A stretch of DNA of 64,000 nucleotides from Alphaproteobacteria bacterium (GTDB lineage: Bacteria > Pseudomonadota > Alphaproteobacteria > RF32 > CAG-239), in contig JAFVFB010000005.1 in the NCBI GenBank assembly GCA_017475705.1, forward strand, positions 65,405-129,404, given 5' to 3'. Positions within the stretch are counted from its first letter, which is position 1, and each line of letters begins with the position of its first letter. A program made the translations under genes and the position numbers. The notes below the pieces were generated by a model that ran no database searches, was not told the origin of the DNA, and saw only the letters and a list, made by a program, of their open reading frames with translations. Positions 55,987 through 60,381 of this stretch are shown piece after piece.

Positions 55987-56880
55987 TTAATAATTTCTAG
56001 TTAAAATATACCTTGACAATAAAATTAAGCTATTTGCTTTTGGACCAAAATCAGTTATTAACATTTCTGCCTCAGTTATTAATGAAGTAGCCATATTCTT
56101 TGCCTTTTCAATACCATAGATGCTTACGAAATTTACTTTTTGTTGCTTTTTATCTTTATTGAGAGTTTTTCCTACCAATTTTTCATCTCCTTCAACATCG
56201 AGTATATCATCCGTAATTTGAAAAGCGATTCCAATATTTCGTGAAAATTTTCTAAGCTTTTCTGTTTGTTCGGCGGTGGCATTGCCCAAGAGCGCCCCAG
56301 CCATGCACGGATAGCTTAGGAGGCATCCTGTTTTTAGCTCTTCAGTATGTTTGATTATGGCCTCAGGTGAAGAAAAATTTTGTTGCGAATCGATATATAA
56401 ATCTAGAATCTGACCGGCAATCATTCCGTTAAAAGCACCAGCTGCCTGTGCTAATTTTAAGGTAAGTTGTACTTTTTTATCAGCTGGTATAGGGGCTTGA
56501 TTTAATATTTGAAATGCATATGTAAGCAAACCATCCCCGGCCAAAATTGCTGTTGCTTCATCATAGGCCTTATGACATGTCGGCTTACCGCGCCGCATAT
56601 CATCATTATCCATTGCCGGCAAATCATCATGAATGAGAGAATATGTATGTAGCATTTCTAATGATGCAGCGACGGGAAATGCCGTTTGATAAGAAACTCC
56701 AAACAAAGCTGCTGTTTCGCACAATAAAAAAGGCCGTAATCTTTTACCGCCGTTCATCAGACTATATTTCATTGCCTGTGCTGCGCGGTGCTGTAGTTCA
56801 TCAATATTTACAAAATAATTCTGTATATCTTGATTAAATTTTGCACAAAAATCTTTTAATATCTTTTCAATCTCAGTCAT
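55987..56880 (-). CDS. ispA: Farnesyl diphosphate synthase
   Basis: IspA condenses isopentenyl and dimethylallyl diphosphate to C15 farnesyl diphosphate for quinones and lipid carriers. Both Asp-rich motifs are present: DDLPAMDNDDMRRG (near residue 84) and DDILDVEGDE (near residue 224). The 297 residues are normal for the bacterial short-chain type. GGACGG precedes the ATG. It is third in the cysS-xseB-ispA run, 21 bases after xseB. Confidence 0.92.
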   Translation of the reverse strand: MTEIEKILKDFCAKFNQDIQNYFVNIDELQHRAAQAMKYSLMNGGKRLRPFLLCETAALFGVSYQTAFPVAASLEMLHTYSLIHDDLPAMDNDDMRRGKPTCHKAYDEATAILAGDGLLTYAFQILNQAPIPADKKVQLTLKLAQAAGAFNGMIAGQILDLYIDSQQNFSSPEAIIKHTEELKTGCLLSYPCMAGALLGNATAEQTEKLRKFSRNIGIAFQITDDILDVEGDEKLVGKTLNKDKKQQKVNFVSIYGIEKAKNMATSLITEAEMLITDFGPKANSLILLSRYILTRNY

Positions 56881-56901: not shown

Positions 56902-57153
56902 TTAGGCTTCTACACTATCTAAGGGCGAAGTAGAGATAGTTCCATCTTTGGCTATTTCTATCTTTTCTACCTTTAAGGTTGCTGCCGCCAGCTTTTCCTG
57001 ACAAAGTTTTTTTAATGCAACAGCCTGTTCATAGCTTGCAACAGCATCATCCAATTTAGTTCTACCGCTTTCGAGTTCTCTGACAATATTTTCCAATTTT
57101 GCCAGTGCTTCTTCGAAATTTAAATTTTTGAGTTCTTCGTTTTTTTCTGCCAT
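56902..57153 (-). CDS. xseB: Exodeoxyribonuclease VII small subunit
   Basis: XseB is the small subunit of exonuclease VII, which trims single-stranded DNA. The 83-residue product carries the family core LNFEEALAKLENIVRELESG and then LDDAVASYEQAVALKKLCQE. The large subunit gene is not in the window. It lies nine bases after cysS and upstream of ispA; the xseB-ispA pair is common in Proteobacteria. Confidence 0.9.
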   Translation of the reverse strand: MAEKNEELKNLNFEEALAKLENIVRELESGRTKLDDAVASYEQAVALKKLCQEKLAAATLKVEKIEIAKDGTISTSPLDSVEA

Positions 57154-57162
57154 ATTACAATC

Positions 57163-58584
57163 CTAAAGTTTAATTAATTCGATTTCTTTATTGGGCAAAT
57201 CTTTTACACCAATCCCTAATGCTGCGAGCTGGTCTCTGATTTCATCAGATTTTGCCCAATCTTTTGCTGCACGAGCTTCTGCTCTTACTTGAAGCAACGC
57301 CTCTATTTGCGGTGTTATTGCTATTCTTTCGACCTCTTTGGGAGCAACATCTTTTAAGGAAAGGTTTAAGGCTTTATCAATATGGTACAAAAACTCTCGT
57401 TTAAGAATAGCTGATTTTTGATTATCTTTCACAACCGACCATATTAAAGAGAGAGCCATTGGTGTTTTCAGATCATCAAATAAATAATTATTAAATTCTT
57501 CATTCAGTGCCTGTAAGGTCTTTTCTTCTGTTTCAGTTAGGTTTTGGTTTTTAGCTGCTGCCTTATATATAGACATTGCTTCTGCCAAATTTTCATAAGC
57601 ATTTTTGGCCGCATCCATTGCTTCTTCAGAAAAAATAGCTGTACTGCGATAGTGTGAGGTCAAGCAAAAATACTTATAGTGCATGGGCTGATATCCTTTT
57701 TCTACCAAACTATCAAGAGTAAGGAATCCTCCTTTTGACTTGCTCATTTTTCCTGATTTATTGTTTAAGAATTCCATGTGCACCCAATAATTCACCCATT
57801 CATGCCCTAGACGTGCTTCTGACTGAGCTATTTCGTTTTCATGGTGAACAGGGATGTGATCTATGCCGCCGCAATGAATGTCTATGCATTCTCCTAGATA
57901 TTTTGTGGCCATGGCAGAGCACTCGATATGCCATCCGGGATACCCTCTTCCCCATGGGCTCTCCCACTGTAAGATCTGGTTTTCAAATTTTGATGATGTA
58001 AACCAAAGTACAAAATCAGATGCATTTTTTTTATTTAAATCTTGTTCTGTGCGTGCCCCGTGTTTCAAGTCCTCACGCTTTTGTCCTGAGAGGCAGCCAT
58101 AGTGAGGAAATTTTGCCGTATCAAAATAAACATTACCATTAGAAATATAAGCGAAACCTTTCTCTTCCAGGGCTTTTATAAAATCTATCATGTCTTGAAT
58201 ATGCTCTGTTGCTCGGCAAACGATTGTTGGTCTTTTTAATCCTAGTGCCTGCGTGTGTCTAAAAAATGCATCTTCGTACATACGGGCAATTTCTAAAACA
58301 CTTTTTTGCTCGCGTTCGGCGGCAATTTTCATTTTGTCTTCGCCTTCATCGCCGTCGCTGGTTAAATGTCCAACGTCTGTTATATTCATGACATGCTTAA
58401 CTTTATAACCAGCTAATCGTAGCGTATTTGCTAATAAATCCTCATAGATATAGGTCCTAAGGTTACCAATATGCGCGTAGTTATATACTGTTGGTCCGCA
58501 GCAATACATTGTCACCTGCTTCGTGTCAAGGGGCTTAAATTCATCTTTGTGGCGTGTTTTAGTGTTATATAAAAAGACACTCAT
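57163..58584 (-). CDS. cysS: Cysteinyl-tRNA synthetase
   Basis: CysS charges tRNA-Cys. The 473 residues show the HIGH-type motif in NYAHIGNLRTY, the zinc site (CCGPTVYN near residue 28; WHIECSAMA; HCGGIDHIPVHHENE), and KMSKSKG (KMSKS loop). Start at 58584 (MSVFLYNTKTRHK) is set by AAGGAAAG; the frame running further upstream crosses the leader terminator and is not coding. An attenuator with a Cys-codon leader peptide precedes it. Confidence 0.96.
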   Translation of the reverse strand: MSVFLYNTKTRHKDEFKPLDTKQVTMYCCGPTVYNYAHIGNLRTYIYEDLLANTLRLAGYKVKHVMNITDVGHLTSDGDEGEDKMKIAAEREQKSVLEIARMYEDAFFRHTQALGLKRPTIVCRATEHIQDMIDFIKALEEKGFAYISNGNVYFDTAKFPHYGCLSGQKREDLKHGARTEQDLNKKNASDFVLWFTSSKFENQILQWESPWGRGYPGWHIECSAMATKYLGECIDIHCGGIDHIPVHHENEIAQSEARLGHEWVNYWVHMEFLNNKSGKMSKSKGGFLTLDSLVEKGYQPMHYKYFCLTSHYRSTAIFSEEAMDAAKNAYENLAEAMSIYKAAAKNQNLTETEEKTLQALNEEFNNYLFDDLKTPMALSLIWSVVKDNQKSAILKREFLYHIDKALNLSLKDVAPKEVERIAITPQIEALLQVRAEARAAKDWAKSDEIRDQLAALGIGVKDLPNKEIELIKL

Positions 58585-58600
58585 TTTACTTTCCTTTTGA

Positions 58601-58628
58601 TATTTTAAAAGCGGCTTTAACAAGCCGC
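58601..58628 (-). terminator. Attenuator terminator in the cysS leader
   Basis: On the minus strand a perfect 7-bp stem (GCGGCTT at 58622-58628, AAGCCGC at 58611-58617, 4-base loop) is followed by TTTTAAAATA. It lies 27 bases before the cysS ATG and after the leader peptide, so it would end transcription before cysS unless disrupted. Confidence 0.75.
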
Positions 58629-58687
58629 CTTCGTTTATTTTATGGTTTAAAATCATCTCGGCAGCATGTCTTAGATGTTCATGCTAC
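58611..58687 (-). promoter_or_regulatory. Mutually exclusive leader hairpins of the cysS attenuator
   Basis: Four segments can pair in three ways. Segment 1 (58680-58687, GTAGCATG) pairs with segment 2 (58661-58668, CATGCTGC; one G-U). Segment 2 (GCTGCC, 58660-58665) can instead pair with segment 3 (GGCGGC, 58624-58629; one G-U). Segment 3 pairs with segment 4 (58611-58617) in the terminator. Segment 1 begins inside the third Cys codon, so a ribosome stalled on the Cys codons would free segment 2 to block the terminator. Confidence 0.72.
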
Positions 58688-58721
58688 AACAACAGTAGAT
58701 ATTTCCATTATAAAAAAACAT
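58671..58721 (-). CDS. Cys-rich leader peptide of cysS, 16 residues
   Basis: The minus strand encodes MFFYNGNIYCCCSMNI and a TAA. Three consecutive TGT codons lie at codons 10-12. AGAGGA lies five bases before the ATG, a good ribosome binding site. A promoter lies just upstream and a terminator hairpin just downstream, followed by cysS. By analogy with trp and his leaders, stalling at Cys codons when Cys-tRNA is scarce would allow cysS transcription. It is too short for standard gene finders. Confidence 0.75.
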   Translation of the reverse strand: MFFYNGNIYCCCSMNI

Positions 58722-58745
58722 TTTTTCCTCTTTTCTTTAAAAGGA

Positions 58746-58774
58746 ATTTTGTCGCTTTTAATTTTAGTTGTCAA
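58746..58774 (-). promoter_or_regulatory. Candidate promoter of leader-cysS-xseB-ispA
   Basis: On the minus strand a perfect TTGACA (58769-58774) lies 17 bases before CAAAAT (58746-58751, 4 of 6). Transcription would start about 17 bases before the leader ATG. Confidence 0.55.
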
Positions 58775-58798: not shown

Positions 58799-59614
58799 TT
58801 ATCCCATATCCCGTCCGCTATTTTGTTTTATCATCTGATCAGCAGATACTTGCGAAGAGTTTTTAGCTTCATTTTCTTTAGCAGACGTGGGAATTGGCGA
58901 GCTATTCAGATCTTCCAATTGTTTATCGGTTATTTTTTGGGCCACTGTCGCTTGCATTGCCAGGTCTTGTTTTTGACTCTGTTTTCTGTGCTCGCTTAAG
59001 AGATCTGAACGAAAGATTTGGTTGGTATCTTCTAATACATCCATATAATCAAATCCCCTATTTTTCCGTACTTCTTGTAGTTGCTGGCGGCATTTTTCAT
59101 TTAATTCAGCCGTTCTCCCTAAAATAGGAATATTCTGCCATTTTTTATCAGATGCAATTTGCTCTGGTGTGGCATATGCCCAAGGAAATTTTCTTTTCAA
59201 ATCTGGTAAGGCCTCTCTTCCCATGATTTGTTTTTGTGTTAGTATTGCGACATTATCAATATTTCTATCTCCTAAGCCCCTAGCCTTTGCTTCTGCTCGT
59301 GCCATTTCCTTATATTTTAATTGATACATAGCAGCTTTTTCCATGCTACTCGCTTGCCCTACGCGAGCACGACATTCAAAAATTGCATAAATATCTTCTA
59401 CCTCCAATTGAGCATTTTGAGAAACGACTACTAATTCCATTGCTCTCTTATTATTGTCATTTTCGGCATATGAACTCCGTAAGACGACAGTATCACCATT
59501 AATTGTAAAAAATTGTTGTTCTGGCCATGCTGCATTTATATCTTGTACAATCTTTCCGACTTCTACAGCATATTTTTTACCATTTTTAGAAGTATAATAC
59601 TTTTTATCACTCAT
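58799..59614 (-). CDS. Hypothetical protein with C-terminal QNSGRDMG, paralogue of 59638
   Basis: The 271-residue protein is unknown. It shares with its upstream neighbour a core (MARAEAKARG, then ALPDLKRKFPWAY, then KCRQQLQEVRKNRGF) and the end KQNSGRDMG. The N-terminal part looks like a small beta domain (YAVEVGKIVQD and on) and the C-terminal part is a polar linker. No signal peptide or membrane segment is present. GAGGAG before 59614 fixes the start. The identical tail in two diverged proteins suggests a functional C-terminal tag. Confidence 0.72.
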   Translation of the reverse strand: MSDKKYYTSKNGKKYAVEVGKIVQDINAAWPEQQFFTINGDTVVLRSSYAENDNNKRAMELVVVSQNAQLEVEDIYAIFECRARVGQASSMEKAAMYQLKYKEMARAEAKARGLGDRNIDNVAILTQKQIMGREALPDLKRKFPWAYATPEQIASDKKWQNIPILGRTAELNEKCRQQLQEVRKNRGFDYMDVLEDTNQIFRSDLLSEHRKQSQKQDLAMQATVAQKITDKQLEDLNSSPIPTSAKENEAKNSSQVSADQMIKQNSGRDMG

Positions 59615-59637
59615 TTTGCTCCTCACACTACTATGGG

Positions 59638-60381
59638 TTACCCTAAATCTCGACCGCTATTTTGCATGATATGCTCCATCGGCACTGTGTTTTGCTGTTT
59701 TTCTATCTGAGAAGAACGCCTTTTTGACTGTCGTTTTTCTGCGGCTGCGACCAATCTTTGTGTACCTTGATCTACTTGTTCAGCGGTCAGTTTTTTCTGC
59801 TCTTCCATAACTTTTCTTTGCATTGCTACGTCTTTAATGATGATTGACTTTCCTGACTTTGATTTAAACATAATATTAAAAGAACTATTTTGTTGGATTT
59901 CTTTGAGATACTGACGACATTTTATCTTATATTCAGTTTCTTTATCAAAATACTTCTTAAAACCGTCGCTCCATTTTTCATCATATGCCCAGGGAAATTT
60001 TTTCTTTAAATCCGGCCATGCCTTTTTGCCATCAATTTGTTCCTGGCTTAATTTCAGCAGTTGAGCATCATTTTCTGTTTTGCCTTTTGCTAGTGCTTCT
60101 GCTTTTGCCATATTATTATATTCATTTTGGTATAAAGCAATTTGCTCTATCCGAGAAGCGATACCCTGTTGTTGGCGTGTTTTTATTTCTTGAATAATAT
60201 CTTCTTTAAAAGGTCCATTATAGCTAAAATCATGTCCATCGTCCATCTTTACATTCTTTCCTTTAGCATTAATATGGATTACGACATTCAATCCTTGTTT
60301 TTTTGATGTATCTGCGGTTGGCTCTATCGATAATACGATTTTTTCTCCTTTTACCATGATTTCTTGTTTCATTTCAGGCAT
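59638..60381 (-). CDS. Hypothetical protein with C-terminal QNSGRDLG, paralogue of 58799
   Basis: This 247-residue protein shares a core with the next gene (MAKAEALAKGKTEND, AWPDLKKKFPWAYDEK, KCRQYLKEIQQNSSF) and the end MQNSGRDLG. The N-terminal part is a different small beta-rich domain (EIMVKGEKIVLSIEPTADTS). A basic, Gln-rich linker precedes the tail. No export signal is visible. AGGAG lies before the ATG. It starts a two-gene unit with its paralogue, 23 bases apart. No family is recognised. Confidence 0.72.
   Translation of the reverse strand: MPEMKQEIMVKGEKIVLSIEPTADTSKKQGLNVVIHINAKGKNVKMDDGHDFSYNGPFKEDIIQEIKTRQQQGIASRIEQIALYQNEYNNMAKAEALAKGKTENDAQLLKLSQEQIDGKKAWPDLKKKFPWAYDEKWSDGFKKYFDKETEYKIKCRQYLKEIQQNSSFNIMFKSKSGKSIIIKDVAMQRKVMEEQKKLTAEQVDQGTQRLVAAAEKRQSKRRSSQIEKQQNTVPMEHIMQNSGRDLG

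Follow-up and report, generated by a model that had tools for sequence, protein, structure and literature searches.

A predicted cysteine-codon transcription attenuator upstream of cysS in an uncultured alphaproteobacterial gut lineage

Organization of the cysS locus

The cysS locus lies on the minus strand of the window, i.e. the whole stretch of 64,000 nucleotides that was analysed, and belongs to a source genome of 1.34 Mb (97% complete, 37 contigs). The cysS gene (57163..58584) encodes a cysteinyl-tRNA synthetase of 473 aa, as identified by Pfam PF01406 (E=6.7e-100) and PF23493. It is followed on the same strand by xseB, encoding the small subunit of exonuclease VII (56902..57153, Pfam PF02609), and by an ispA-like polyprenyl synthase gene (55987..56880, Pfam PF00348), both assigned to a presumed operon with cysS. 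The genes xseB and ispA are also found downstream of cysS in those loci of the genus whose contigs are long enough, with ispA conserved beside xseB and an insert of ~0.7 kb after cysS in some of them.

Between marC and the cysS leader, at 58799-60381, two adjoining minus-strand ORFs of 275 and 247 aa are located, which are 30% identical to each other and both terminate in NSGRD(M/L)G. Neither of them has a Pfam match, and among the loci compared the pair is present in this genome only.

The leader region is situated directly upstream of cysS, as evident from its position and from the Pfam identification of the gene. It carries a sigma-70-type promoter match, TTGACA-N17-CAAAAT (58746..58774), followed by the Shine-Dalgarno site AGAGGA (58726..58731) of a leader ORF of 16 codons, MFFYNGNIYCCCSMNI (58671..58721), with TGTTGTTGT and three consecutive TGT codons at 58692-58684. 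Segment 1 (GTAGCATG, 58680..58687) overlaps the last Cys codon and pairs in the fold with 58661-58668 (GTAGCATG/CATGCTGC, pairing 1:2). Segment 2 (CATGCTGCC, 58660..58668) carries GCTGCC at 58665-58660, the partner of segment 3, and the resulting pairing 2:3 is GCTGCC/GGCGGC (58660-58665 with 58624-58629). Segment 3 (AAGGCGGCTT, 58622..58631) is assigned as the 5' arm of the terminator from the fold and the leader alignment, and segment 4 (AAGCCGCTTT, 58608..58617) as its 3' arm from the fold and covariation; pairing 3:4 is GCGGCTT/AAGCCGC (58622-58628 with 58611-58617), after which a short and degenerate T-tract, TTTTAAAATA (58601..58610), and the Shine-Dalgarno site AAGGAA of cysS (58591..58596) follow. 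The promoter, ribosome binding site, three-Cys ORF and three mutually exclusive pairings had been pointed out in an earlier note on this DNA, and all of them were found on the minus strand exactly where it had placed them. An in-frame upstream extension of cysS to 58656 was set aside as unlikely because its start would fall inside the attenuator.

Conservation of the leader ORF in relatives

Promoter-like sites number 30 in 7.5 kb as against 27.5 expected by shuffling, and the promoter match on its own is without significance. The leader of the window folds better than its dinucleotide shuffles (z = -2.8, with 3 of 200 shuffles as good), and of shuffled or reverse-strand upstream regions of 300 nt, only ~4% contain a short ORF in which two Cys codons adjoin. 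At this locus, no matching family was found in Rfam 15.

The comparison set consisted of 20 distinct leader regions, 16 from genomes of the genus and 4 from a named genome collection; those relatives that bear names are assemblies of uncultured Alphaproteobacteria, with ruminant gut as the source of many. A cysS match was obtained in 17 of the 18 genus genomes, the gene belongs to the same cysS lineage in 16, and all 16 of these carry the leader. The short ORF with a Cys run, segment 2 and the terminator are present in all 20 leaders of this cysS clade, and the leader of the window is therefore not a product of chance.

The alignment that the earlier note had proposed as a check thus showed consecutive Cys codons upstream of cysS in 20 of 20 cases. 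The run comprises 2-5 codons (peptide positions 10-12 in the window) and ends 6-12 nt before the stop codon; TGT (52) and TGC (19) are interchanged within the runs and the remaining residues are variable, the peptides of relatives including MIYNKNICCCCCQTH, MLQINEIKACCCGKA, MKKFFVNCFCCCNS and MYTKFEKCCCCKKI. TTGACA is likewise present in 20 of 20 leaders, 47-69 nt upstream of the leader ATG, which is preceded in nearly all relatives by a GAGG-like or AGG-like site. Within the clade, no relative keeps cysS without the Cys codons and hairpins, the case that the earlier note had held to count against an attenuator, but distant orthologous cysS genes do occur without the leader.

The pattern of conservation also bears on what the peptide might sense. 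As many as five Cys in a row is an unusual feature with the potential to bind metal, and the nascent poly-Cys chain could on that account act as an arrest peptide responding to sulfide, metal or redox state instead of Cys-tRNA charging. This is very improbable for the present leader, in which the Cys run alone is conserved, its length varies from 2 to 5 and no conserved arrest motif is found among the 20 peptides; moreover, the gene under control encodes the Cys-tRNA synthetase, in agreement with the identity of the codons.

Terminator and antiterminator pairings

In the leader alignment, 95.1% of the cells of terminator 3:4 are paired and four of its eight pairs have changes on both sides; the covariation score was reached by none of 500 shuffles, and slid registers score lower. 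The hairpin is followed mostly by T6-T8 in the relatives, while the tract is degenerate in the window and also imperfect in leader L018. The short U-tract had been named as the weakest part of the proposal; it is indeed poor in the window but not in most of the relatives, and the defect is largely peculiar to the genome of the window.

Segment 2 is recognizable as GCTGC(C/T) beginning 4-7 nt past the leader stop codon in 19 of the 20 leaders; the other one, L014, has GCTCTT in its place with a matching change in segment 3. Complementarity between segments 2 and 3 is seen in every leader (n=20), and the 2:3 antiterminator has 99.1% of its cells paired as compared to at most 63% in any other register. 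Its variation is mostly of the G-U kind, and the covariation by itself does not exceed that of column shuffles to a significant degree (69/500). L014, however, exchanges GCTGCC/GGCAGC for TGCTCTT/AAGAGCA, i.e. seven standard pairs in a shifted register. A test for covarying stems among relatives had been proposed as a check; covariation is seen for 3:4 and not, by shuffling, for 2:3, where the replacement in L014 is nevertheless compensatory. Both pairings persist through base changes among the relatives. The 1:2 helix, which has no single common alignment and was judged by folding energies alone, is less uniform, with a mean z of -2.0 for its region against -3.8 for the terminator.

The hairpin could also be read as an ordinary terminator serving upstream transcription, the promoter being unrelated to it and the ORF a product of chance; T-tract hairpins are common and the promoter match is unremarkable. 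The promoter nevertheless lies upstream of the hairpin, the in-frame Cys codons are retained in 20 of 20 leaders with synonymous change, and the 2:3 alternative and the spacings are conserved. Conservation has already largely refuted this explanation, and we regard it as highly improbable.

The leader ORF might instead act on translation, stalling or termination at the Cys codons serving to open, close or couple to the ribosome binding site of cysS. The mycobacterial polycysteine leaders are cysteine-responsive attenuators described as translational in work cited in a passage of PMC13236596, and an obvious intrinsic terminator is absent from some of the cysS uORFs found in other Alphaproteobacteria. 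In the present clade the hairpin has the character of a terminator, most relatives having T6-T8 after it; in the fold of the window it makes no pairing with the Shine-Dalgarno site of cysS, which lies downstream of it. Furthermore, segment 2 is a mimic of arm 4 and forms pairs with arm 3, the behaviour expected of an antiterminator. Translational control is hence improbable here, if a little less so than a chance ORF at an ordinary terminator or an arrest peptide.

Ribosome position and predicted switching

In each of the 20 leaders, segment 2 lies 17-23 nt past the last Cys codon and 4-7 nt past the stop codon. A ribosome protects ~13 nt from its A site; with these conserved spacings, a ribosome stalled at the Cys codons should therefore leave segment 2 free, while one at the stop codon should cover it.

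When the computation places the polymerase immediately beyond segment 3, pairing 2:3 has a mean probability over the 20 leaders of 0.21 in the absence of a ribosome; this rises to 0.92-0.98 for a ribosome occupying the Cys codons and falls to 0.03 for one at the stop codon. The corresponding values for the window are 0.88, 1.00 and 0.00, the first of which indicates that its 1:2 helix fails to outcompete 2:3 when no ribosome is present. In a control computation, any pairing between segment 3 and upstream RNA was counted and compared with shuffled spacers. The window gave 1.00 in the stalled state against 0.20 at the stop codon (shuffled spacers, 0.71 and 0.64), and the means of the 20 leaders were 0.99 and 0.71 (shuffled, 0.70 and 0.68); a large difference between the two states is thus confined to some of the leaders, the window included.

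At equilibrium with arm 4 present, the mean terminator probability is 0.95 without a ribosome, 0.64 in the stalled state and 0.95 at the stop codon. The stalled state of the full-length RNA favours the antiterminator in only about 8 of the 20 leaders and not in the window, whose terminator probability is 0.98; its switch must therefore be co-transcriptional, i.e. kinetic. Reliance on co-transcriptional kinetics is usual for attenuators.

The features of a classical ribosome-mediated transcription attenuator are found together in the leader, namely an ORF with cognate codons near its stop, an intrinsic terminator, a conserved 2:3 alternative and the proper spacing; the terminator is represented by the covarying hairpin and T-tract of the relatives, the T-tract of the window being degenerate. 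Judged from these comparisons, the leader is very probably an attenuator of this kind that senses Cys-tRNA(Cys) and controls cysS-xseB-ispA. Relief of attenuation by scarcity of Cys-tRNA, as put forward in the earlier note, gains support from the clade-wide Cys runs, the retention of 2:3 and 3:4 and the spacing of the stalled ribosome. When Cys-tRNA is plentiful, the ribosome would get to the leader stop codon and cover segment 2, the 3:4 hairpin would form and transcription would end ahead of cysS. When Cys-tRNA is scarce, the ribosome would pause on the Cys codons, 17-23 nt upstream of segment 2, and the free segment 2 would pair with segment 3, leaving no terminator and allowing cysS to be transcribed. 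We infer from the same features that the leader is translated, that termination takes place in vivo, that the three genes are co-transcribed and that they respond to Cys-tRNA. Expression of cysS would thus probably be turned up under scarcity of cysteine-loaded tRNA, and co-induction of xseB and ispA under the same scarcity is predicted.

Distribution and origin of the leader

Among 47 CysS proteins placed in a tree, the 19 leader-bearing rows are set apart from the rest by a single branch with a support of 100/100. A covariance model of the leader region was searched in the 18 genus genomes; its strong matches (E 1e-14 to 3e-10) come from 16 of them and all lie upstream of cysS. The two genomes without a match, G008 and G005, do not have a cysS of this type, and G005 (72% complete) has no cysS match. 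G008 (L017), which is placed in the genus, carries a cysS of 38% identity without the leader, reflecting either a replacement or a misbinned contig.

Model matches away from cysS were weaker (E 4e-5 and worse), and the eight that were inspected resemble ordinary hairpins at gene ends. The pattern TGYTGYTGY was rejected as a genome-wide indicator because it is too frequent to be informative (349 sites in the genome). No Cys-run leader was found in the upstream stretches read before cysK or cysE, both of which are present in the genome, and the cysS leader is the sole putative attenuator of its kind detected there.

Upstream of cysS, no Cys-run leader was found in the other genera of the family, sister genera sharing the cysS lineage of the window among them, in Candidatus Enterousia or in Elusimicrobiota with a related cysS. 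The leader is confined to one cysS clade, and therefore its distribution is most simply explained by a single gain of the predicted attenuator at the base of this clade or genus. Two strongly divergent cysS lineages occur within the family, one sharing about 60-85% identity with the cysS of the window and the other about 40%. In the midpoint-rooted tree, the lineage of the window stands among sequences of Elusimicrobiota, Clostridia and Patescibacteria, which suggests a horizontal replacement of cysS. The gain would thus have occurred on a single branch of the cysS tree, in a cysS lineage unlike that of most sampled Alphaproteobacteria.

Occurrence in other Alphaproteobacteria

A wider survey covered 100 further cysS upstream regions of Alphaproteobacteria, searched within 300 nt for a short ORF with adjacent Cys codons. 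Such an ORF occurs in 16 of the 100 regions, about four times as often as in the controls, of which the reverse strand gave 4 and shuffled sequences 3.9. Good-looking cases from other families include MIKVLVKNNFVVCCCT with a T-tract terminator (L128), MILYKFNICCCCCCR (L132) and MFVRAFSPCCCACCCR (L142/L255). This enrichment suggests a recurrent use of Cys-codon leaders before cysS, by descent or convergence.

ORFs with adjacent Cys codons were noted before cysS in members of several further alphaproteobacterial families (L128, L132, L142, L156, L162, L192, L197, L218, L245 and L251), a terminator being present in some and lacking in others. In L128 (family f64), MIKVLVKNNFVVCCCT is located within the 330 nt upstream of cysS. 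After it comes GCGACG, which could pair with CGTCGC at the beginning of a terminator with TTTTTT; the sequence is unrelated to that of the present leader and the attenuator layout is equal. A second promoter-like site lies between the attenuator-like region of L128 and cysS.

The chances are about even that Cys-codon attenuators of cysS arose independently several times in Alphaproteobacteria, on native as well as horizontally acquired cysS genes. If so, cysS would have been put repeatedly under Cys-tRNA control by different RNAs of one layout.

Comparison with known systems

The attenuators of pheST (pheM), trp, his and leu in Proteobacteria combine a four-segment RNA with a leader peptide containing many residues of the cognate amino acid. 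Lopatovskaya et al. in 2010 reportedly surveyed attenuation at the operons of aminoacyl-tRNA synthetases. The present leader resembles that of pheST in having a synthetase operon as its target; it differs in reading Cys in place of Phe, Trp, His or Leu, and no sequence relation to these attenuators is expected. The T-box riboswitches of cysS in Firmicutes respond to the charging of tRNA(Cys) by reading the tRNA directly, without a leader peptide. A response to tRNA(Cys) charging upstream of cysS would be common to both systems, but the T-box covariance model was absent among the 21 Rfam matches up to E=10 at the present locus.

The pheST attenuator is mentioned in PMC1262725, which also describes Cys-rich leaders before cys operons in Mycobacterium and other Actinobacteria, without obvious terminators. 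The cysteine biosynthetic genes of Mycobacterium smegmatis are described as being under translation attenuation in PMC13236596, where Canestrari et al. 2020 is cited. These polycysteine leaders share with the present one a run of Cys codons close to the stop of a short upstream ORF; unlike it, they precede genes of Cys biosynthesis, have no obvious intrinsic terminator and are described as translational.

A cysS leader equivalent to the present one is uORFC-8-2, known from 145 examples before cysS, all of them in Rhodobacterales, and comprising tandem Cys codons and a terminator (RNA Biol. 2021, PMC8632094); for it, a mechanism of Cys-codon attenuation of cysS has already been proposed computationally (PMC8632094). 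Both systems belong to Alphaproteobacteria and join a short tandem-Cys ORF before cysS to two stems ending in a terminator, with an equal proposed logic. The earlier note knew of no described cysS example in this lineage; within the literature searched this stands, but it does not extend to the class, given the Rhodobacterales examples (PMC8632094). The relatives of the window are uncultured gut Alphaproteobacteria, none labelled Rhodobacterales, to which the description of uORFC-8-2 is confined. According to its published description, uORFC-8-2 has two Cys codons, as a rule at uORF positions 14 and 15, whereas the runs here comprise 2-5 and mostly start earlier (10-12 in the window); the present leader further differs in its cysS lineage, its conserved GCUGCC segment and its explicit antiterminator. 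Since uORFC-8-2 has already been proposed in Rhodobacterales, the predicted attenuator described here is a known type in another alphaproteobacterial lineage, and would mean that control of a tRNA synthetase in response to Cys also operates in a gut lineage represented here by metagenome assemblies alone.
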